From: Micavibrio sp.
GTDB taxonomy: Bacteria > Pseudomonadota > Alphaproteobacteria > Micavibrionales > Micavibrionaceae
Assembly (NCBI GenBank): GCA_012960155.1
Contig: DUBU01000009.1
Coordinates: forward strand, 1 to 32,686
DNA: 32,686 nucleotides
Direction: 5' to 3'
The position numbers and the translations under genes were made by a program. Under the pieces are notes generated by a model. The model was not told the origin of the DNA and searched no databases. It saw nothing but the letters and a program-made list of their open reading frames with translations. Below are positions 8,560 through 18,809 of this stretch, piece after piece. The first letter of the stretch is position 1; each line of letters begins with the position of its first letter.

Positions 8560-10497
8560 ATGGCACCCAGAAGCAGTATCGGACAAGAGTCAGACGTGAG
8601 TAAAAAAGAAACAACAGAAGAAAAAGGCGAAGTCAAAGTCAAGGGTACTTTGGCACAGATCGTCAAGAAATTGGTCAAAACCGGCAAGGAAAAGGGCTTC
8701 GTCACCTATGACGAAATCAACAAAGCCATTCCTACCGAAGAATTCTCTTCAGAAGAAATCGAAGATGCGATGAGCACGATTACCGATGTCGGTATTCAGC
8801 TTGTCGAAAGCGAAGACGATCTCGATGAGGAAGAAGAGAAAGAAGAAGGCGATTACGAATCAGGTGGTAACATTTCATCTGATGACTCAGGTCGTACGGA
8901 TGATCCGGTACGTATGTACCTGCGCGAAATGGGTACGGTTGAACTGCTGTCCCGTGAAGGCGAGATCGCCATCGCCAAGCGTATCGAGGCTGGCAAGGAA
9001 ATGATGATCGGCGGTATTTGTGAATCACCGCTGGCGATTGAATCTCTGATTGCATGGTACGAAGCCCTGCAAAAGGGTGACATTCTTCTGCGCGAAGTTA
9101 TCGATCTGGACGCAACATACAGCGACGGCGATGACAGCGCTGAATCTTCTGATGATGAATCAGATGATGATGACGAAGAAAAAGCCGAAGGCGAAGAGGG
9201 CGAAGGCGACGACGGTGAAGAGGACGAAAACAATATGTCCTTGTCAGCTATGGAAGAAGAGCTGATGCCGCAGGTTTTCGAAAACTTCGCGAACATCCAG
9301 AAAACCTACAAAAAGATGCAGAAAGTCCAGCAGACTCGCTTGGACGCGCTGTCTAGCGGTAAAGAGCCGGCAGAGGCAACAAACAAGAAATATGTTGGCC
9401 TGAAAGAAGAAATGGTCGTCTTGATGAATGCGGTGCAGCTGAATAATGCCCGTATCGACCAGCTGATTGAACGTCTATATAAAATCAACCGCGAGCTAGT
9501 GAGCCTTGAAGGTAAACTGATGCGTATGGCTGTTGACTGCGGTGTTAAGCGCGAAGCGTTCATAGAAGAGTATTTCGGTTCAGAACTCGACCCGAAATGG
9601 CTTTCCCGCGTTAAGAAGATCGACAAAAAATGGGAAAAGTTTGCTGATACTAAAGCAGACGAAATCAAAGACATTCGCGACCAGATTGCTGTAATCGCTG
9701 ATGACTCTGCGCTGCCGCTCAAAGAATTCCGCCGTATCGTCGGTACGGTGCAGAAAGGCGAGCGTGAAGCCGCCCGTGCGAAAAAAGAAATGGTCGAGGC
9801 CAACTTGCGTCTTGTGATTTCTATTGCCAAAAAATATACAAACCGTGGTCTGCAATTCCTGGATCTGATTCAGGAAGGTAACATTGGTCTGATGAAGGCC
9901 GTTGATAAATTCGAATATCGCCGCGGCTACAAATTCTCGACTTATGCGACATGGTGGATCCGTCAGGCGATTACACGTTCTATTGCCGACCAGGCGCGTA
10001 CAATCCGTATTCCTGTGCACATGATCGAAACGATCAACAAACTGGTGCGCACAAGCCGCCAGATGATGCACGAAATCGGCCGCGAGCCAACACCAGAGGA
10101 ACTGTCAGAGCGTCTGCACATGCCTCTGGAAAAAGTCCGCAAAGTGCTAAAAATCGCAAAAGAGCCTGTATCTCTGGAAACACCGATCGGTGATGAGGAA
10201 GATTCATCTCTGGGCGATTTCATCGAAGATAAGAACGCTATCCTGCCGGTTGAAAGTGCGATCCACTCTAACCTGCGCGAAACAACAACACGCGTTCTGG
10301 CATCCCTGACACCGCGTGAAGAGCGTGTGTTGCGTATGCGTTTCGGTATCGGTATGAACACAGACCACACTCTGGAAGAGGTCGGTCAGCAGTTCAACGT
10401 GACCCGCGAACGTATCCGTCAGATCGAAGCCAAAGCCCTGCGCAAACTTAAGCACCCAAGCCGCAGCCGCAAACTGCGTAGCTTCCTGGATACTTAA
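8560..10497 (+). CDS. rpoD: Primary sigma factor (sigma-70)
   Basis: RpoD directs RNA polymerase to housekeeping promoters. The 645 residues contain region 1.1 (about 25-90), region 1.2 with [20 protein letters not shown] from about 113, a very acidic Asp/Glu/Ser insert (about 188-226) inside the non-conserved region, regions 2.1-2.4 from about 410 ([39 protein letters not shown]), region 3, and region 4 at the end ([33 protein letters not shown]). A start at GTG 8596 is possible, because AAGAG lies 6 nt before it, while nothing clear lies before the ATG at 8560; the choice changes 12 residues. It is probably transcribed together with dnaG. Confidence 0.97.
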
Positions 10498-10524
10498 ATC
10501 TAGCGTTTAGATTGAAATTTATGA

Positions 10525-10553
10525 CTAGCCCGGCGTTAACTCTGTCGGGTTAG
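10525..10553. terminator. Probable terminator after rpoD
   Basis: CTAGCCCG (10525-10532) pairs with CGGGTTAG (10546-10553), an 8-bp stem with one G-U pair and a 13-nt loop, followed by TGTCTTT. It lies 28 nt after the rpoD stop and overlaps the last codons of the convergent gene. A second weak 6-bp hairpin, AATCTA/TAGATT, lies just before it (about 10497-10513). Confidence 0.45.
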
Positions 10554-12564
10554 TGTCTTTCTGGACGATAGTTTGCTGACCTGCCGCTGCCGTCACAGCT
10601 GGTTGATCAGGGGCAGGGGCGGCATCGGGCTGTGCAGCTTTAACTTCACTCCATGCATCATCCAGACGCTCGATCTGAACGGCGCGGTCAAGCGCCGCTA
10701 GCGCGTCATCATTATGTGCGGCTTCTAACGTATCCCGCAGCGCCTGTAGCGCCGCTGGCCTGTTAAGAACGCCTTCAATGCCCATAACAACGTTCCCGAC
10801 GGTGAAGTTACCATCAAGGCCGCTATCGGCAAGCTCTGTCGCGCTTTGTTCTTCCAGGAAAGTGATATGCGCTTGCACTTCACCAATATCCATATTCATA
10901 AAAATATTCTCGTACTGCTCGTACAGGCCTGCCTGCGCGTCCGTGCCGTCCAGCGCACGCTCTGCTTCCATAACCTTGAGCGGGTCAGGCGGAAACTCGC
11001 GCTGGGCATCCAGAAGGTTCTGCTCGGCTTGCAGAATTTGTTCTTTCAAAGATGCTAGCTCGGCCATTTCAGGCGGCATGCCTTCGGGCATTTCATCAAC
11101 GGGCAGCATGACATCAAAGTATGTCGCAAACATGACTTGCGGCGGATTGGGCTCGGACTCAAGCATCCGCTCCATCGCTTCCGCCCCGACTATTGCGCCG
11201 CCCACACCGCCGACAAAACCACCTGCGGCCGTGCCCCATGGACCAAATGCTGAACCTAATGTCGCGCCGACTTTGATACCGACAGCCGCGCCTGCTAGTT
11301 CTGCGCCAAGAATATAGGATTCGTGTTCAGCCGCACCCGCCGCCGATGTAAACTCGGCCTGTAACAGTAGGGTCGTCGTCTCGGCATAGGGGTTGGCGCT
11401 CTCATGAAATACTTCACCGCCGACTAACGCCGCTTCGCCTAATGTTGCGCCGTCCTGATATTCTGATGCCCCTGCTGCCGTCGCTGCTACAGCGGCAATA
11501 CCTGCACCGACCAGCGGCCCTGTTTTGCGTGATAAGGCGCTCGCGCGATCTGCAATCTCGCCCAGAATGCCGCGCACTTGGCGCTGATCCAGATCAAGAT
11601 GGTTGTTTAGCTTGCTTTGAAACTCTTCCAGATCGCCCGTGCCATGCAGTAAGCGTTCGCGCAAATCCAGATCGCCGCGCACATCAATGCCGACTTCATC
11701 CAGCAGCGCCATTTTAATCGCTTGGTTAGGGTCGTGATCCATAACGTAATTGCGCACACCAGGCACGAACCCTTCATATTCCTGACCCATCTGCGCCAAA
11801 AGCGGCACATGGCCCGGGTCATCGCTCAGCGGCAGTAATGTCTCGATATCGCGCATCAGGCGGCCATGGTCGGCAAAGCCTTCGCCGCGGCTTAGCACAA
11901 CGTCATGCTTGGCTGTTTGCAGGATATCGCCCATATTTTCCGGCGTAATATCGGACGGGATTGAATCAGGGTCAACCGCCACGGCAAACTCACGTGTTTC
12001 ATACCCTGTGGCTGTTTCTACACTCCATGTTCCCGAAACAAAACTCATGCCGTTTCGCGGCGTCACTTCATGGATGACCAGATCGCCTTGCTGGCCGTTG
12101 ATCTCGAATTCACCCAGAACTGGGTTGCTTAATCGTCCGTTTGGCGTTTCGGATGTGGCAGGTGTGTCTGCTGCTACTGGTGTCTCGACTTCTATATCGG
12201 CTGTCGCTGTGGGTACTAAATCTGCCCGCGCCTGCCGCATGGCTTCGGACATATTGTCAAAAGCCTCACCATTACTGGCCACGATACGGTCGCTATACGT
12301 CTCCAGCAGGCCATTGAGCCTGTCTTCAGAAAATACGGCCTGTAATTCACGCTGTTTTAATCCTGTAAGGCTGGGCAGGTCATCGGCCTCGATCGGCGCG
12401 ACAAATTCTCTGACATTATCGCCGAAATTTGTACTGATTGTGCCTGATAAGAAAGGCTTATCGTCAATGAAATGGATTTCTTGCGTGACGATTTCCGCAT
12501 CAACACCGTTGAAGCTCATTTCGGCAAAAGCCGGATTGTTAATACTATACGAATAATCGCTCAC
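10525..12564 (-). CDS. Unknown 679-aa protein: two N-terminal copies of a new domain, glycine zipper, coiled coil
   Basis: I do not recognise the protein as a whole. Residues 1-118 and about 143-248 are two divergent copies of a domain that also forms most of the 151-residue protein encoded at 13756-14211; the best-kept piece is IHFIDDKPFLSGTI (30-43), with VIHEVTPRNGMSFVSGTW (163-180) as the second. They are joined by an Ala/Thr/Pro linker. Residues about 350-366 form a small hydrophobic segment, and about 418-462 form a Gly/Ala-rich zipper of the kind that inserts in membranes. From about 500 on it is helical, Glu/Ala/Gln-rich and probably coiled. It has no signal peptide. The start is GTG with AGGGG 5 nt upstream. 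It is the last gene of a three-gene minus unit. An effector-like or membrane-inserting role is only a guess. Confidence 0.85.
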   Translation of the reverse strand: MSDYSYSINNPAFAEMSFNGVDAEIVTQEIHFIDDKPFLSGTISTNFGDNVREFVAPIEADDLPSLTGLKQRELQAVFSEDRLNGLLETYSDRIVASNGEAFDNMSEAMRQARADLVPTATADIEVETPVAADTPATSETPNGRLSNPVLGEFEINGQQGDLVIHEVTPRNGMSFVSGTWSVETATGYETREFAVAVDPDSIPSDITPENMGDILQTAKHDVVLSRGEGFADHGRLMRDIETLLPLSDDPGHVPLLAQMGQEYEGFVPGVRNYVMDHDPNQAIKMALLDEVGIDVRGDLDLRERLLHGTGDLEEFQSKLNNHLDLDQRQVRGILGEIADRASALSRKTGPLVGAGIAAVAATAAGASEYQDGATLGEAALVGGEVFHESANPYAETTTLLLQAEFTSAAGAAEHESYILGAELAGAAVGIKVGATLGSAFGPWGTAAGGFVGGVGGAIVGAEAMERMLESEPNPPQVMFATYFDVMLPVDEMPEGMPPEMAELASLKEQILQAEQNLLDAQREFPPDPLKVMEAERALDGTDAQAGLYEQYENIFMNMDIGEVQAHITFLEEQSATELADSGLDGNFTVGNVVMGIEGVLNRPAALQALRDTLEAAHNDDALAALDRAVQIERLDDAWSEVKAAQPDAAPAPDQPAVTAAAGQQTIVQKDTNPTELTPG

Positions 12565-12635
12565 ATTGACCCCTGAATACTAAAATCCCTCGTCTATAGG
12601 CAGTCTAAAGACAAAGTGTTAAATAGCTTTTAAGG

Positions 12636-13733
12636 CTATAGTCTTTGCCCGATATGCTTAGTATTGACGGCTAACACAGTGCTGTAATCATTCTCACGGA
12701 ATTCAGACTTCATTTCAGGAGAGATAGTCGCGATACAGCTTGCAAACTCGTCCAGTTGATTGCCGCTCGGGCGGGGAATGTAGGCGCTGTAGGGCTTGTC
12801 CCAATAGTCAGTCGTCACAGTAAAAACAGAATTACCGCTGCGCAGGGCATTAAAGACGGGCAGGGTGTATTCAGGTTTCATCATGCCAATCACAAGCCTG
12901 CCATTTGGTGATTTGCCGATCTTGGCCTTGTCTCTGGCATCAAGCCCGTCAAAATTAATGCTCATGTGCTCGATCGTATCAAAGTTATTGGTGTTGCCTT
13001 TGCGAACCTTGGCACTGAATTCCACAGTGTTCTGGCCTGTGCTATTCTGCATATAGGATATAACAAGGCTTATCGTGTGCTTGTCATCAACCTGAACAGA
13101 GTAATTTGACGTGCAGTGGCTGCCGTTCATCATTTTCAGCTTCTGCCCCATACTGTCTACACGTGCCATCATAGGCACTGAAATATTCGGGGCGGCCATC
13201 GCATCCATCATCTCGGCCATGCTGTCCGCACACATTTCGGCAGTCATGCCATCGTTATGTACAATGTCTAGCAGTCCCATAAACATAGCGTCGCTTAAGG
13301 CTGTCTGATAAATGACATGATCGATCAAAACACCTTTATCAATGAAATCCACGGCATGAATACGCTTTTTTAAGGCGTTCGTAGCCTGAAATCGATCTTT
13401 CGTCCTTTTGATGCGTAGGTTATTAAACAGCGCCTGTTTGTAATCGTCACTAAGATCAGGGTACTGACAGACTTCTATGGCTTTCTTGGCGGACTTAATC
13501 GATGCTTTCGGCTCGATTGTGGGCACAACTAACTTTTCCAGCTCGTCAAGTTGGGCCTGCTGCTCCGCCGTTAAGCTGGCATAAGCGTCCTTGTATTGCT
13601 TGTCTTTGGCGGATATCGCCGGATCAATACTGATATTCAGTCGCGGATCTTGCGCTTGGGCAATTGTCGCGCTGTTCATGAAGAAAATTAAAAATAGGTA
13701 CGCAGTGTAAATCTTGTTACGTAAGATAGGCAC
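12636..13733 (-). CDS. Unknown exported protein (365 aa)
   Basis: The product begins with a signal peptide (basic start, hydrophobic residues about 9-25, likely cut after AQA at 27), so it should be periplasmic or secreted. The mature part has a helical N-terminal half with EEQ/Lys-rich stretches and a C-terminal half that looks beta-rich; six or so cysteines are spread through it, fitting disulfides. I see no known motif. The start is GTG at 13733 with GGGGAG about 7 nt before it. It lies 22 nt after the upstream shared-domain gene and 71 nt before the 679-residue gene, all on one strand, so a common transcript and related job are likely. Confidence 0.85.
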   Translation of the reverse strand: MPILRNKIYTAYLFLIFFMNSATIAQAQDPRLNISIDPAISAKDKQYKDAYASLTAEQQAQLDELEKLVVPTIEPKASIKSAKKAIEVCQYPDLSDDYKQALFNNLRIKRTKDRFQATNALKKRIHAVDFIDKGVLIDHVIYQTALSDAMFMGLLDIVHNDGMTAEMCADSMAEMMDAMAAPNISVPMMARVDSMGQKLKMMNGSHCTSNYSVQVDDKHTISLVISYMQNSTGQNTVEFSAKVRKGNTNNFDTIEHMSINFDGLDARDKAKIGKSPNGRLVIGMMKPEYTLPVFNALRSGNSVFTVTTDYWDKPYSAYIPRPSGNQLDEFASCIATISPEMKSEFRENDYSTVLAVNTKHIGQRL

Positions 13734-13755
13734 TGTACTCTCCCCGCATATAATT

Positions 13756-14211
13756 TTAGTGAGTTGGTAAAGGCTGTGAAGCTTGTTCGTTGGGTGTGTG
13801 TTTAACTGCTGGCCCTTTAGGTTCTGTTGGCTTTATTGCCTCCATAATGGCGCGATCCATGGCCGCGCGCACCTTACGGATGGCGCCAAAAATATCTTTG
13901 AATTTATCATGTGCACTGATGGTTAAATCATTCAAACGCGCATCAATGCGGATTTGCACAAATTCTTTATCAAACAGGCTTTGCTGTTCTTTTGGCGATA
14001 ATTTTTTGATCTCGAGAAACTCTGCCTGACGCAAAGGTGTGAAGTATGCGTGTGCGCCTGACACACCGGCAAATCTGATCGTGCCGGCCATATAAGGCTT
14101 GTCGTCAACCATGTGCACGCAAGTAGACGTAATCTCGCATTTGCGATCCCTGACAACCGCCTCTACCGCAATGGGTTTATTGAATTTTAAAGTATATTCC
14201 GTCACCGCCAA
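13756..14211 (-). CDS. Small protein made of the shared domain (151 aa)
   Basis: Residues about 15-120 align by eye with the N-terminal domain of the 679-residue protein two genes downstream: VHMVDDKPYMAGTI (32-45) against IHFIDDKPFLSGTI, an aromatic-Pro step (YFTPL against FVAPI), then a matching helical part ending in AIRKVRAA against AMRQARAD. The C-terminal 30 residues are Pro/Lys/Glu-rich and probably disordered. No signal peptide is seen. The first codon is TTG at 14211 with GGGA 5 nt upstream; GTG at 14205 is nearly as good. It is the promoter-proximal gene of the unit and faces the tRNA gene across a 121-nt gap. Function unknown. Confidence 0.82.
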   Translation of the reverse strand: MAVTEYTLKFNKPIAVEAVVRDRKCEITSTCVHMVDDKPYMAGTIRFAGVSGAHAYFTPLRQAEFLEIKKLSPKEQQSLFDKEFVQIRIDARLNDLTISAHDKFKDIFGAIRKVRAAMDRAIMEAIKPTEPKGPAVKHTPNEQASQPLPTH

Positions 14212-14275
14212 TATTTTCCCAATTTATTCTTTAAATCCATTCTACAGGGGTTTTCTTAAATAAATTCTAACGGGC

Positions 14276-14298
14276 CGCGGATTTTAGCTTTATCCGCG
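14276..14298. repeat. GC-rich hairpin between operon and tRNA gene
   Basis: CGCGGAT (14276-14282) and ATCCGCG (14292-14298) form a perfect 7-bp inverted repeat with a 9-nt loop, between the divergent shared-domain operon and the tRNA gene. There is no T-run on either side, so it may be an operator or a structured leader rather than a terminator. A TATAAA at 14312-14317 could be the -10 of the tRNA promoter. Confidence 0.35.
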
Positions 14299-14332
14299 CG
14301 GTGCTTTTAGCTATAAACCAAGAATATGGTGA

Positions 14333-14409
14333 GGGCCTGTAGCTCAGTTGGTTAGAGCGGTCCGCTCATAACGGATTGGTCGCTGGTTCAAGTCCGGCCA
14401 GGCCCACCA
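14333..14409 (+). tRNA. tRNA-Ile2 (anticodon CAT, to be modified to lysidine)
   Basis: The 77-nt sequence folds as a full cloverleaf: acceptor GGGCCTG with CAGGCCC, D-arm GCTC..GAGC, anticodon stem GTCCG/CGGAT around the loop CTCATAA (anticodon 14367-14369), T-arm GCTGG/CCGGC, discriminator A and encoded CCA. CAT could mean Met, but the loop and the following TTGGTCGCTGG with this D-arm match bacterial tRNA-Ile2 (ileX type), whose C34 is converted by TilS so that it reads AUA. It is neither initiator (no C-A mismatch at the acceptor tip and no GGG/CCC anticodon stem) nor a typical elongator tRNA-Met. Confidence 0.9.
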
Positions 14410-14412
14410 TAT

Positions 14413-14438
14413 AAACCGCTCATATTCAGAGCGTTTTT
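14413..14438 (+). terminator. Intrinsic terminator of the tRNA gene
   Basis: CGCTC (14417-14421) pairs with GAGCG (14429-14433), with a 7-nt loop and TTTTT directly after (14434-14438); upstream A residues extend the pairing. It starts a few bases after the tRNA CCA end. Confidence 0.75.
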
Positions 14439-14489
14439 CATTTAATTCTAATGTGTTATGATCATTTTTTTATAAACAATGGAATTACA

Positions 14490-15200
14490 ATGAATATCAA
14501 AGTCATCCTTCTAGGTCTTACTATATTTACTTTTGCGACGTTTGGTTTCGCTGAAAACGTGATCGCACAAGTAACGCAGAAACAGCTCATGGATTACCAA
14601 AAAGATGCGGATCTTGCGCGTTTGGAGCATATTCTCTACTGGACAGACTTGATTGAAGAATATCAGCAGAAAACAGGAAGTTTCCCGTTTCAGAACTCTC
14701 TGACGTCTAGTAAGCCGGGTTTTGTAAGAATTGTAACCAAAGCACAGCAAGAATATTTTGACCCTCAATCGGATAAATATATCTCCAAAATTGATAACAA
14801 TGCGCGCGGATCTTTTCAGCAATTCTCAATAGTGGATTTTGTGGCAGAGCTGGAAAAAGGTCTGGGACGAGAAATTGAAGAGAAATACGATATTCAGAAC
14901 GTGCCTTCGAAAACGACCATTGGCTATAACTACTTCGTAACAGAAGATGGCTATCTGGTGTGGGTGCCTTGTATCACGTGTGGCGTAACACCCGTTTCAA
15001 CGCTGCTGCTTGATGGATACACGCCCACAGTGAACATAGCGTCCGAGGGCATGGTCGGTAGTGTGACAAAAGCCTATACAAGAGACGATATGATAGCGCA
15101 TCCGATTTTTAAAGACTGGATGGCGCGCGGATATATCAAAGAGGGCTACGTTAGACACGTAGAACAGCAAAACGCTCGTGATTCTAAAGCGAGCCCCTAA
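14490..15200 (+). CDS. Unknown exported protein (236 aa)
   Basis: The protein starts with a signal peptide (MNIKVILLGLTIFTFATFGFA, cut near residue 21-27) and is then soluble, so it should be periplasmic or secreted. The frame is open from an ATG at 14451, but the ATG at 14490 has GGA 8 nt upstream and directly begins the signal peptide, so I chose it. Seen in the mature part are a helix with LEHILYWTDLIEEYQQKTGSFPF, KIDNNARGSF, and a CITCG pair that could be a disulfide or metal site. I do not recognise the family. It lies alone on the plus strand after the tRNA gene and converges with the 66-residue gene. Confidence 0.82.
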   Translation: MNIKVILLGLTIFTFATFGFAENVIAQVTQKQLMDYQKDADLARLEHILYWTDLIEEYQQKTGSFPFQNSLTSSKPGFVRIVTKAQQEYFDPQSDKYISKIDNNARGSFQQFSIVDFVAELEKGLGREIEEKYDIQNVPSKTTIGYNYFVTEDGYLVWVPCITCGVTPVSTLLLDGYTPTVNIASEGMVGSVTKAYTRDDMIAHPIFKDWMARGYIKEGYVRHVEQQNARDSKASP

Positions 15201-15208
15201 AATAAATT

Positions 15209-15409
15209 TTAAGGCGTGTAATCGATACAAGCTGCTGTCGGGGCATTCGCTGCGGGGGTCTCGCGCAGGCATAGCTGGCTTGTTTCTGTGTTGTAATATA
15301 CCGCGTTACTGTTAAACGCATCGATCGCACGATCTTCGTCCGAAGTTGGCAGGCCGATAACAATCCCTAAACTTATGCCAATAGCCATTCCCATGATGTA
15401 TTCACTCAT
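15209..15409 (-). CDS. Small membrane-anchored or exported protein (66 aa)
   Basis: A short product with a hydrophobic Gly/Ile-rich N-terminal segment (about residues 5-20) and a polar tail with two cysteines (47 and 61), ending in CIDYTP. The ribosome site AAGGAGA 6-7 nt before the ATG is among the best in the window, which argues for real translation. It starts only 10 nt after the 842-residue TPR/ATP-grasp gene, so both are on one transcript. No known family. A substrate or partner of the upstream enzyme-like protein is possible but purely inferred. Confidence 0.75.
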   Translation of the reverse strand: MSEYIMGMAIGISLGIVIGLPTSDEDRAIDAFNSNAVYYNTETSQLCLRETPAANAPTAACIDYTP

Positions 15410-15419
15410 AACAGTCTCC

Positions 15420-17948
15420 TTATATAATTTTTGCTACTAAAGGTAAGATATCAGCTGGATCCGAGAACCATTCTTCGGTTTCCAGTCTGACTTCGTTTCG
15501 TTCCAGCCCTAGACGTTGCTCAAGCATTTCCGGTGTGCGGTCCGCGATGGCGGCTGCATGGTCTGCCGTTTCAATAGGCTTGTGGAATAGATAGTCACGG
15601 TAGCGCTTTGCCGCTGTGTCTTTGCCCCAGCGCGCAGCTTCGACAGCTTTTTGCAGGGCACTGCTTGCCGCATTGCCGCCAATGATTTTTATGGCCGCCG
15701 CATGCGTGAAGGCTGTTGCAAGGTCAAGTGCGATACTGCGTTTGGCATCATCTCTTGATCGTGCAAATTTATTCATTTGCGCGGCAAAATCCGGGGCGGA
15801 TTGAGCGTACTGAGGCAATACAGATTCCAGATATGGACGCAATTGTCCTTCAACAACCCATTGGTCGTTGAAATCAACACGTGCCGAGACCGGGATTTCA
15901 TCGGCGCGGTCTTTATATTGATCAAGTTTCAAAGAACTAGGCGGGAATGAAACAACGCTATTGCGTGCGTCACTGGTGTCATCGACTGAATTCGCCGGTA
16001 GTTTCCAGTAGGGGCGATAGAATTGAATATCCTCAACCTGTTGACCGTCAGGCGATAGCACAGCTGTAAATGCTATGCGCATTGTACCATCGTAAAACTT
16101 GCCGTTATCGGCCATGACCGGCTTTGATCGAATACATTCCTGAACCACGATATTAGGGTCCACATGATCGGCCCAATATGACCCTTCAGGGGATGACCAT
16201 GATGTGGCCTGATGAAGTTCCGCAACGATATCTTGTCCACTGACCAGCTCGACGCCGCGTCCGATGCTGTCATCGCATGGTTTCATAATGAACTGTGCGT
16301 CCGTAACGGTCTGACCATCGTTTACAAGGCTTTGTAAGCGGTTCTGCAATTCGCGTTCCGTCATTTTAGAAGAGCGGGGTACTACAATAGTTTTAGGGTA
16401 CAGCGCTGCCCATTCATCAGGCGTGGTCACATGTAGATAATCTTTACGCTCGTTTACCGCGCGCCAGCCTAATGTAGCGGAAGTATAGACGGCCTGTTGG
16501 GCGCAAACGATGGCCTGCACCAGATAGGGCAGGCTGTCATGAACGCTGTAGGGGGTAACAACCTTAACCTCATGACCGTATTTTTCTGCCAGTCTCTCTT
16601 CCAACTTGCGGTGATACGGGAATACCAGATCTTCGCGCATGTTTTTGTTATATGCGCGTTTGAACCCGTCAAAACCTGACGAGTACATATCATTGGTTTC
16701 GATGATTTTAACTTTGCCGTCTTCTGTGAGCTTCAGATCAATGGAGGACTCGATCAGAATGGGGAGCCGCGGACGCTCATCACCAAATGCAGGTTTCAAA
16801 GGTGCATCAGGGTCTCTGGGATATAAATCGTTGATACCCAGCTTCGTATTAATTGTCCCTTTGTCCGCGCTGGTAAATTGAAGCTGTGGATTCGTCTGTT
16901 CTTCAGCGCGTCTGGTTTGTAGGCGCGCATATTTAAGACCATATTCCAGCACATCATCAACATTGCCAAGCTCACGGCTGCCATGCATGAAATTTTGGTA
17001 GAACACGCCAGTTTCCGGATCGGCTTTAATGGCCTGTCTGTAATGCTCCAGCGCACCTTCCTTATCACCGAGGCGTGATAGGCATATGCCTCGTAAATTT
17101 AAGAAATGCGCCCTTTCTGATTGCTTGCTGATAAGCGTCAGTGCTTGGGCAATGTGATCACGGCAGGCCTCGTATTGGCTCTGATCATACTCATGATGAA
17201 TAACCATACCCAGCAATTGCGGTTTGATTCTATCTGTTAGTTTATCGCCGTGCTCCTCCAGCAGATGCTTTGCATGGGTGCCTGCTATACCGCGCACGCC
17301 AATTTCATGTTCATAAAGGATTTCAACAAAGTCGCGCACATATTGTGGTGCGTTGATTGTGGCTTCACGAATATCGTAAACATTTACATCATGACGCAGC
17401 CCATAAATAATATTAGACCAAATCCTGTTTGTGATGTCCTCGTCTTGCGGATATTCGGCCAGCTCTGCAACGTCAAATTCCAGAACACCCTTAATATCAC
17501 CCTCTTGCAGCATGAGCCCCAACAGGCGCTCTTTATTTTTAATATCCTCAGGGTCGTATTCTAGTGCTTGTTCAATCGCGCTGCGTGCGGCCTCCAGCCT
17601 ATGCATAAAGCCATAGCAGTCATATAGCATTTCACATGATTCTTTTCCTAGCTCAGGATCCTCGCGTAAACGTTCATAGAGCGGGGCAGCTTCGGTGTAG
17701 ATCTCGGCACGGAAATATATATTCGCGAGAGAGAATACAGTATCGGGATTTTCATGACTGTGCTCGACGGCTAGTTTGCCGGCGGTAATCGCATCATCCA
17801 ATCTATCTTCACCGGCAGAGCGATAAGCCATATATGACCAAAGCTCGCTAAGCGTCATGGATTTCAAGAAGGCGCCTTGTATGGCGGTAAACTCTTCTTC
17901 TGACATATCCAGAATAGTTTGAGCGGTTTTGTTTTGGGTTGTATCCAT
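15420..17948 (-). CDS. TPR-repeat protein with C-terminal ATP-grasp-like domain
   Basis: The N-terminal half (about 30-350) consists of TPR-type helical pairs; good units include LANIYFRAEIYTEAAPLYER and LSRLGDKEGALEHYRQAIKADPE. The C-terminal half looks like a ligase of the ATP-grasp kind: IIETNDMYSSGFDGFKRA (about 415), FIMKPCDDSIGRGVELV (553-569, Lys556 and the Gly-rich loop), VVQECI (about 600) and FYDGTMRIAFTAV (about 620). The E-T-N element comes before the Lys loop, which suggests a circularly permuted form. No signal peptide. A start at 17987 is open, but only the ATG at 17948 has GGGACGG upstream. The product is expected in the cytoplasm; substrate unknown. The 66-residue gene follows by 10 nt. 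Confidence 0.85.
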   Translation of the reverse strand: MDTTQNKTAQTILDMSEEEFTAIQGAFLKSMTLSELWSYMAYRSAGEDRLDDAITAGKLAVEHSHENPDTVFSLANIYFRAEIYTEAAPLYERLREDPELGKESCEMLYDCYGFMHRLEAARSAIEQALEYDPEDIKNKERLLGLMLQEGDIKGVLEFDVAELAEYPQDEDITNRIWSNIIYGLRHDVNVYDIREATINAPQYVRDFVEILYEHEIGVRGIAGTHAKHLLEEHGDKLTDRIKPQLLGMVIHHEYDQSQYEACRDHIAQALTLISKQSERAHFLNLRGICLSRLGDKEGALEHYRQAIKADPETGVFYQNFMHGSRELGNVDDVLEYGLKYARLQTRRAEEQTNPQLQFTSADKGTINTKLGINDLYPRDPDAPLKPAFGDERPRLPILIESSIDLKLTEDGKVKIIETNDMYSSGFDGFKRAYNKNMREDLVFPYHRKLEERLAEKYGHEVKVVTPYSVHDSLPYLVQAIVCAQQAVYTSATLGWRAVNERKDYLHVTTPDEWAALYPKTIVVPRSSKMTERELQNRLQSLVNDGQTVTDAQFIMKPCDDSIGRGVELVSGQDIVAELHQATSWSSPEGSYWADHVDPNIVVQECIRSKPVMADNGKFYDGTMRIAFTAVLSPDGQQVEDIQFYRPYWKLPANSVDDTSDARNSVVSFPPSSLKLDQYKDRADEIPVSARVDFNDQWVVEGQLRPYLESVLPQYAQSAPDFAAQMNKFARSRDDAKRSIALDLATAFTHAAAIKIIGGNAASSALQKAVEAARWGKDTAAKRYRDYLFHKPIETADHAAAIADRTPEMLEQRLGLERNEVRLETEEWFSDPADILPLVAKII

Positions 17949-18041
17949 GGTTCCGTCCCTGAATTTTTGAATGCAGATAATTACCATAATAAATGAGCGG
18001 GGCGCAAGTTTTTATGAAAACAGAGGGTGGGCATAAAAAGT

Positions 18042-18069
18042 TTGACATTCCCCCAGAAATCCATATATT
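18042..18069 (+). promoter_or_regulatory. Sigma-70 promoter of rpsD
   Basis: A perfect -35 TTGACA (18042-18047) is followed after 16 nt by TATATT (18064-18069), about 120 nt before the rpsD start. It is the best promoter match I see in the window, as expected for a ribosomal-protein gene. Confidence 0.7.
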
Positions 18070-18188
18070 ACGCGCTATTCCCGAAAAGAGGGGCGCATAT
18101 GCTTTGTAAAAAGCGCGTTTCCGTTGATTGAGAAACATCAATACATGGTTGGATATCGGGACAAAAACGAAAAGAAGGAAAAAACACT

Positions 18189-18809
18189 ATGAGTGAGAAG
18201 AAGCGTCCTAGCGCTAAGTACAAAATTGACCGCCGCCTGGGTTGTAACCTGTGGGGCCGTCCAAAATCCCCTTATAACAAGCGTCAAACTGCACCTGGCC
18301 AGCACGGTCAGCGTCGTGGCAAAATGTCCGACTACGGTCTGCAGTTGATGGCCAAGCAAAAGCTGAAAGGCCACTACGCTAACATCGGTGAAAAACAGTT
18401 CCGTCGTTACTTCGCGGAAGCCAGCCGTCTGCGCGGCGATACAGGTCAAAACCTGATCGGCCTGCTGGAGCGTCGCCTGGATGCCGTTATCTACCGTTGT
18501 AAATTCGTACCAACAATCTTTGCTGCACGTCAGTTTGTAAGCCACAAGCATATTCTGGTTAACGGCAAATGCGTAAACATCCCGTCTTACCAAGTTAAGC
18601 CTGGTGATGTTATCGAGATTAAAGAAGCTTCACGTCAATTGGCTCTGGTTCAGCAAGCTGAAGAAGATCCATCACGTGATACTCCTGAGTACATCGAAGT
18701 TGATGCGAAAGCACGTAAAGCAACATTCCTGCGCACTCCAAAGCTGGAAGATGTTCCTTTCGCAACACAGATGGAACCACAGCTGATCGTGGAATACTAC
18801 TCACGTTAA
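18189..18809 (+). CDS. rpsD: 30S ribosomal protein S4
   Basis: S4 binds 16S rRNA early in small-subunit assembly. The 206 residues match: N-terminal S4 domain with [14 protein letters not shown] and [11 protein letters not shown], then [19 protein letters not shown], the S4 RNA-binding domain ([34 protein letters not shown] split in two parts, about 95-130; [11 protein letters not shown]), and the usual end LIVEYYSR. The ATG has AAGGAAAAAACACT upstream. It stands alone with its own promoter (18042) and terminator (18832), not in the alpha operon, which is common in alphaproteobacteria. Confidence 0.98.

Follow-up and report, generated by a model that had tools for sequence, protein, structure and literature searches.

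Organisation of the locus

The window analysed here is a stretch of 32,686 nucleotides (nt) from Micavibrio sp. (GenBank assembly GCA_012960155.1, contig DUBU01000009.1, positions 1 to 32,686). Its reverse strand carries a gene for a protein of 842 amino acids (aa), which we call P0001 and which runs from an ATG at 17948 to a stop at 15420 (15420..17948); an alternative in-frame ATG at 17987 would give a protein of 855 aa. A 66-aa open reading frame (ORF; 15209..15409, reverse strand) starts 10 nt past its stop. Three parts could be distinguished in P0001: a tetratricopeptide repeat (TPR) array (residues ~47-350), a predicted permuted ATP-grasp module (~396-690) and a helical C-terminal part (~690-842). 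Sequence profiles, a predicted structure and a structure search agree with the original prediction, made from the DNA letters, that the C-terminal half is a permuted ATP-grasp domain, and we consider it very likely that P0001 holds this fold.

The TPR region (16899..17810, reverse strand; residues ~47-350, boundaries approximate) was defined by Pfam TPR models and by the helices of a full-length structure model. P0001 contains tandem units above the Pfam cut-off, TPR_2 being found with an E-value of 3.3e-12 (best stretch 281-312), and TPR_19 matched residues 47-96, which bears out the N-terminal repeats noted in the original prediction. The full-length model had a predicted local distance difference test score (pLDDT) of 55.9 and a predicted template modelling score (pTM) of 0.42, with low confidence at residues 145-222 and a pLDDT below 50 at residues 716-842. 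In Foldseek it returned mostly TPR proteins, none of the 50 matches listed being titled ATP-grasp, and a model of the domain was used instead.

ATP-grasp blocks in swapped order

Both Pfam matches in the C-terminal half were under their cut-offs: the end of the R2K_3 profile (positions 132-157 of 169) aligned with residues 402-427, and an earlier part of the ATPgrasp_ST profile (60-128 of 278) with residues 550-614. Since the end of R2K_3 lies upstream of the earlier part of ATPgrasp_ST, two ATP-grasp profiles occur in P0001 in swapped order. Against the isolated domain R2K_3 reached an E-value of 0.00028, and ATPgrasp_ST matched five of the ten family members described below at E <= 0.1, at best 2.1e-6. 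One relative of P0001 exceeded the Pfam cut-off of TTL (tubulin tyrosine ligase), and when the family profile was compared with PDB sequences, the tubulin polyglutamylase TTLL7 ranked first (E 0.0011) among three matches up to E 10; glutathione synthetase was not among these three.

The block with E417 and N419 (the E-N block) resembles the profile ends of the R2K clade (PF14243, PF18299). It alone matched, however, and the cut-offs were missed, with 21.5 bits against 26.3 for R2K_3 and 16.3 against 26.2 for R2K_2; moreover, in the R2K profiles the block is C-terminal. According to passages of a paper on this clade, its members have a second conserved lysine in the RAGNYA part (PMC4431377). 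Matches of P0001 in PHROGs were weak (best E 0.0083), and phrog_7313, at residues 404-428, also matched by its profile end.

A profile of the E-N block picked up the C-terminal ends of two RimK proteins from the same taxonomic order (residues 253-290 in one and 273-310 in the other, E ~1e-4), the best E-value in 400 shuffles being 0.39. The RimK identity of these proteins, from genomes G032 and G059, was clear from Pfam (RimK, E 3.4e-42 and 3.2e-45). A Lys-loop profile aligned upstream of the E-N match in both of them, with an E-value of ~2, which is not significant. Within P0001 the E-N profile gave a single match, at 399-440; one further E-x-N string, ERN at 816, is at a position that is not conserved in alignment A3 (by eye).

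Alignment of the family with hhalign gave the same picture. In RimK (PF08443) the E-N block (271-321) comes after the Lys loop (156-192), the reverse of the order in P0001. In GSP_synth (PF03738) the E-N block (88-106) precedes the Lys loop (239-296), and in CP_ATPgrasp_1 (PF04174) it does so as well (68-97, then 230-310); this is the order of P0001. The E-values were 0.0018 (Lys loop) and 0.0096 (E-N block) for GSP_synth, 0.024 and 0.043 for the two blocks of CP_ATPgrasp_1, and 0.18 and 1.4e-5 for RimK, where four unrelated window proteins used as controls gave 0.16 to 0.97, each E-value standing for one comparison. The sets used comprised 10 of the 13 GSP_synth matches and 10 of the 39 CP_ATPgrasp_1 matches (those with loci given). 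P0001 thus has the arrangement that marks a circularly permuted ATP-grasp protein: within one domain, the block of metal ligands precedes the Lys loop. That E-T-N comes before the Lys loop had been pointed out in the original prediction, and this is indeed the case: ETN is residues 417-419 and the Lys loop residues 545-565.

Predicted catalytic blocks and conserved residues

The putative metal-binding block in its relocated position (16629..16757, reverse strand; residues 398-440) contains D404, E417 and N419, and was assigned from the R2K_3 profile-end match and the alignment to the RimK C-terminus. It is followed by a segment (16314..16574, reverse strand; residues ~459-545) that contains K502. 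Helices and strands alternate along this segment of the domain model, and from this it would correspond to a pre-ATP-grasp-like part. The Lys loop (16254..16316, reverse strand; residues 545-565, with K556, G563 and G565) was matched by ATPgrasp_ST and, in the family profile, by TTLL7. The hinge Q603-E604, the R624 strand and a YWKLP strand come next (15996..16154, reverse strand; residues 599-651). All strings quoted in the original prediction were located in P0001: FIMKPCDDSIGRGV (K556), VVQECI (Q603 and E604) and FYDGTMRIAFTAV (R624).

Conservation was counted in 10 family proteins, the window protein included, the other nine being 19-29% identical to its domain. D404, E417, K502, K556 and Q603 are identical in all ten. 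R624 was found in nine (the exception, L010, is seemingly misaligned at that site), E604 in eight and N419 in six; position 560, near the Lys loop, is variable. P0001 itself has the residues expected of an ATP-grasp enzyme, namely the lid-loop lysine K556, the acidic hinge residue E604 and the metal ligands D404 and E417-x-N419. Because its set (D404, E417, N419, K502, K556, Q603, E604 and R624) is complete, P0001 is probably active; some members with N419 or E604 replaced may be inactive.

According to passages of a paper on Trypanosoma brucei glutathione synthetase (PMC2845819), Ser153 of the yeast enzyme lies 7 residues past Glu146, and its metal ligands are Asp130, Glu146, Glu386 and Glu442. 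The first two of these ligands could be placed in P0001. S424, the one position compared with the residues for gamma-glutamylcysteine binding, lies 7 residues past E417, and its comparison with Ser153 and Glu146 is one of spacing only.

Predicted structure of the domain

A model of residues 388-725 (338 residues) had a pLDDT of 79.6 and a pTM of 0.81, and it is in this predicted model that the ATP-grasp fold is seen (best Foldseek match E 7.1e-6, TM-score 0.34; best VIA match Z 12.4). Glutathione synthetases from yeast and human (E 7.1e-6 to 2.5e-4) and YjfC (2.3e-5) made up the best eight Foldseek matches. In VIA, homoglutathione synthetase ranked first (root mean square deviation (rmsd) 5.7, 248 residues aligned, model residues 1-307), and the first eight rows, with Z from 12.4 to 10.4, were glutathione or homoglutathione synthetases or similar effectors whose alignments start at model residues 1-4 and end at 307. 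Of the best 50 VIA matches listed, 21 begin at model residue 9 or before and 29 at residue 50 or beyond. Nineteen of the 21 early-starting matches are glutathione or glutathionylspermidine synthetase types or YjfC; the other two are ArgX (rank 37) and a putative gamma-glutamylcysteine synthetase (rank 9, topology unchecked). By their titles, the 29 late-starting matches are D-Ala ligases, tubulin tyrosine ligase-like enzymes (TTLLs), RimK, LysX/ArgX and tubulin complexes (chain F, which we take to be TTL). The permuted ATP-grasp enzymes include eukaryotic glutathione synthetase, GSP_synth and YjfC; the canonical order is that of TTL, D-Ala ligase, RimK and LysX. The title of the 1999 paper by Polekhina on glutathione synthetase speaks of a gene permutation event. 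At E < 0.001 a viral structure library yielded two matches, which add nothing on function: one protein of Hyperionvirus, uncharacterised, and one of Hokovirus, from the tubulin-tyrosine ligase family.

A number of observations weigh against the proposed reading. For P0001 no ATP-grasp model reached its cut-off in Pfam or NCBIfam, and every single ATP-grasp sequence match is weak when taken alone. Two shuffles outscored the match of the Lys-loop profile to the RimK proteins; both of these proteins were recruited by the family profile, and hence were selected for the E-N match, not for its location. The hhalign probabilities for the permuted families were low (1 to 15%). The domain model was built on five sequences, the TM-scores of the best 12 Foldseek matches were 0.26 to 0.39, and VIA rows 1-8 are loose (rmsd 5.0 to 6.0, identity at most 12%). 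ArgX, with its canonical order, aligns from model residue 6. Finally, N419 is replaced in four of the ten members and E604 in two, and half of the members are without the TPR part.

The 66-aa ORF

The 66-aa ORF has an AAGGAG ribosome site that overlaps the stop codon of P0001; the strong site and the 10-nt distance given in the original prediction were both found. Its product has a hydrophobic N-terminus and is an orphan. Codon usage was between coding and non-coding: of 275 stop-free stretches taken in wrong frames from the window's other genes, 16 scored at least as high, and of 262 true coding stretches, 22 scored no higher. No relative of the protein was found in the 57 other genomes of a first search, nor in the order's 141 remaining genomes, among which are those that encode the other family members (one short query, which very diverged copies could escape). 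The check proposed with the original prediction, whether the small gene is kept beside homologues elsewhere, thus came out negative, and the suggestion of a modification system formed with the 66-aa gene is not supported.

Among the nine other aligned members, only L036 has a same-strand ORF with a flagged ribosome site less than 100 nt downstream, and this encodes a 103-aa ferredoxin (Fer2, E 2.1e-11). In six more (L037, L038, L011, L024, L023 and L015) an ORF of 31-114 aa lies at most 64 nt downstream and carries no flagged ribosome site. The one from L038 (62 aa), alone among the six in having been scanned, gave a weak Phd-antitoxin match (E 0.015). Beyond the 10-nt spacing, nothing favours the 66-aa protein as a species-specific substrate, and judged from these comparisons it is probably not a dedicated substrate of P0001.

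Distribution of the family

A single-sequence search of 58 genomes gave matches in eight. The own genome contains P0001 and a TPR-less paralogue; long matches were found in three others (G041, G021 and G052), and in G016, G019 and G028 only the TPR part matched. With profile A2, 14 of the 142 genomes of the order matched; in the more complete subset of 98 genomes the count was 8. Nine of the 14 contributed the ten proteins of alignment A3; the matches in G071, G076 and G090 were fragmentary or divergent and were omitted, and those in G032 and G059 are the RimK proteins. In the class and phylum samples, which partly overlap, profile A3 found only the own genome (1 of 385 and 1 of 398 genomes, respectively), with no match in the 384 other genomes of the class sample. 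A peptide-pattern scan of genome contigs gave four loci from 33 pattern matches, all in metagenome-assembled genomes, three titled Alphaproteobacteria bacterium and one Rickettsiales bacterium. A tblastn search of 50,697 phage and 72,556 plasmid records detected no relatives, and neither did two scans of viral contigs, which start from peptide patterns and could miss distant relatives. From these searches the family appears to be sporadic within its order, and all members seen so far come from this single order of Alphaproteobacteria. No Pfam or NCBIfam model was found to cover it, though one relative passes TTL.

TPRs above the Pfam cut-off are present in three of the ten members (the window protein, L004, and L035, which is the same as L022); L003 and L005 have matches under the cut-off only, and five have none. 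In a tree of the ten domains the five TPR members lie on one side of a weakly supported branch (61/84), which is compatible with a single origin of the TPR fusion without demanding one.

The relatives mostly have unrelated housekeeping genes as neighbours (gatB-, tgt-, ispG- and iscS-like, by eye); by Pfam, further neighbours are H+-pyrophosphatase, lepA and SRP54-GTPase/ParA-type (flhF/flhG-like) genes. Because the neighbours mostly differ, there seems to be no fixed operon, and P0001 seems to act alone. The TPR-less paralogue of the own genome and a member from G022 lie near flhF-/flhG-like genes, which at two of ten is too few to build on; the loci L011:3940-5745 and L051:1928-3424 hold TPR-less members beside such genes in two different genera. 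One permuted member (L024:823-2331) gave a weak Pfam match to AcrF3 (E 0.0077, under the cut-off), which is probably due to chance.

Genomic neighbourhood

P0001 and the 66-aa ORF lie in a segment bounded by tRNA-Met(cat) (14333..14409, forward strand) and rpsD (18189-18809); rpoD is at 8560-10497. The segment also contains a 249-aa ORF (14451..15200, forward strand), which is convergent with the pair, ends 8 bases from the 66-aa ORF and has a signal-peptide-like start (by eye). No Pfam family above the cut-off was found for its product, which gave a weak PADLOC match to KwaA (E 0.005). In genome G004 the same tRNA (94% identical) is ~0.2 kb from rpsD. P0001, the 66-aa ORF, the 249-aa ORF and the block 10525-14211 were not found near rpsD in the six relatives checked, for which ~0.7, 0.8, 4.7, 5.7, 7.0 and 8.7 kb of sequence on the rpsD side was available, so that two were barely tested. 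The segment from tRNA-Met to rpsD looks like a variable pocket.

From rpoD to rpsD (10498-18188), two blocks without counterparts in the checked relatives flank tRNA-Met. The base composition of the two blocks is ordinary (0.47 to 0.51), Pfam revealed no integrase in a set of 15 window proteins, and a search for repeats marking an integrated element at the tRNA region gave only chance-sized matches (E 1.1 or worse). G003, of the same genus, has an apparent decayed tRNA 3' end before rpsD (by eye). A 151-aa protein (13756-14211) is a diverged copy of the N-terminus of a 679-aa protein (10525-12564), with 25% identity and an E-value of 5e-11. The matching stretches are 12118-12564 and 13759-14208 (reverse strand), and the larger protein seems to hold the unit twice (by eye). 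Neither protein had a Pfam family above the cut-off.

Possible function of P0001

On balance we favour, with some reserve, the view that P0001 is a circularly permuted ATP-grasp ligase guided to its partner by the TPR array. The hairpin with the predicted metal ligands (D404, E417 and N419) would open the catalytic domain, while it closes the domain in RimK-type enzymes; after it, the usual order would follow, with the pre-ATP-grasp-like part (K502), the Lys loop (K556), the Q603-E604 hinge and the R624 strand. ATP-grasp ligases act via acyl phosphates. By the same chemistry, ATP and Mg would activate a carboxylate as an acyl phosphate, and attack by an amine or other nucleophile would give a peptide-like bond. 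If the TPR region selects the partner, the target is likelier to be the tail of a protein or peptide, which is what the TTL and RimK enzymes act on, than a free metabolite; most likely, P0001 would attach an amino acid or peptide to the partner so chosen. Ligation, the protein or peptide target and the choice of partner by the TPRs are here extrapolated from the superfamily.

RimK-type and tubulin tyrosine ligase-like enzymes modify protein tails. The E-N block of P0001 resembles that of the former, and its Lys-loop part resembles TTLL7, but the structure matches to both groups run from model residue 50 on. In topology P0001 resembles eukaryotic-type glutathione synthetase, with its permuted order, over almost the whole of the model; the two differ in that identity is ~12% and P0001 has extra TPR and C-terminal parts. 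Sequence thus leans to the protein-tail ligases and topology to glutathione synthetase.

This topology would also suit a ligase of small molecules. Such an enzyme, permuted and glutathione-synthetase-like, would form bonds between amino acids or dipeptides, and its TPRs would have only a structural or assembly role. Glutathione and glutathionylspermidine synthetases are the best structure matches, the spacing of S424 recalls the yeast enzyme in the paper cited above, and half of the family can do without TPRs. On the other hand, P0001 matched no Pfam model of eukaryotic glutathione synthetase, GSP_synth or CP_ATPgrasp_1 at E <= 1 (the HMMER filters drop weak matches), GSP_synth and CP_ATPgrasp_1 have no match at their curated cut-offs in the own genome, their hhalign alignments are weak, and a sporadic presence would be ill-suited to a core thiol pathway. 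We regard this alternative as rather unlikely. That the fold is kept for structure or for sensing ATP, ligation having been lost, is improbable: the replacements of N419 and E604 would fit a degenerate scaffold, but P0001 has all eight residues, and five are invariant in spite of the low identity of the members.

Two further explanations draw on the surroundings of the gene. An accessory conflict gene, anti-phage or phage-borne, in the variable pocket beside the tRNA would agree with the absence of P0001 from the three other genomes of the genus, with the short distance between tRNA-Met and rpsD in G004, with the KwaA match of the 249-aa neighbour and with a role of R2K families in phage-host conflicts, as proposed in passages of PMC4431377. 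Yet PADLOC gave no match for P0001 or three relatives, and the phage, plasmid and viral-contig searches, the search for an integrase and the tRNA-region repeats all argue the other way, which leaves this explanation with little probability. Least of all do we expect a pair resembling a ribosomally synthesised and post-translationally modified peptide (RiPP) system, with the 66-aa gene as the precursor and P0001 as a macrocyclase or tagging ligase. The spacing, the AAGGAG site and the six other members with a small downstream ORF speak for it, and passages of PMC8939145 describe graspetide loci with unrelated precursors even in close relatives, some of them encoding TPR proteins. But the 66-aa gene occurs in 1 of 142 genomes, even if precursors can differ among close relatives, the one flagged downstream ORF is a ferredoxin gene, and, by eye, the 66-aa protein begins hydrophobic and lacks the GG and Phhx(1,2)h motifs that passages of PMC8939145 describe. 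The tempting pairing of P0001 with the small gene is accordingly corrected as unsupported.

Tentatively, and going further than the ligase assignment itself, P0001 may represent an undescribed permuted ATP-grasp family in which a TPR array stands ahead of the relocated metal block and a protein-tagging job like that of TTLLs is combined with the topology of glutathione synthetase. Among the papers listed on ATP-grasp with TPR, permutation or amidoligase, no title or abstract opening describes a fusion of TPRs with a permuted ATP-grasp module, and no paper on ATP-grasp in Micavibrio was found. To our knowledge, permuted ATP-grasp enzymes are few, and those known from bacteria act mostly on small thiols or polyamines. 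If the proposed reading is true, a bacterium would have a new way of tagging proteins, by means of a permuted module that in sequence leans to the protein-tail ligases and is fused to a TPR array; the family would also add a lineage for studying how the ATP-grasp fold tolerates permutation.

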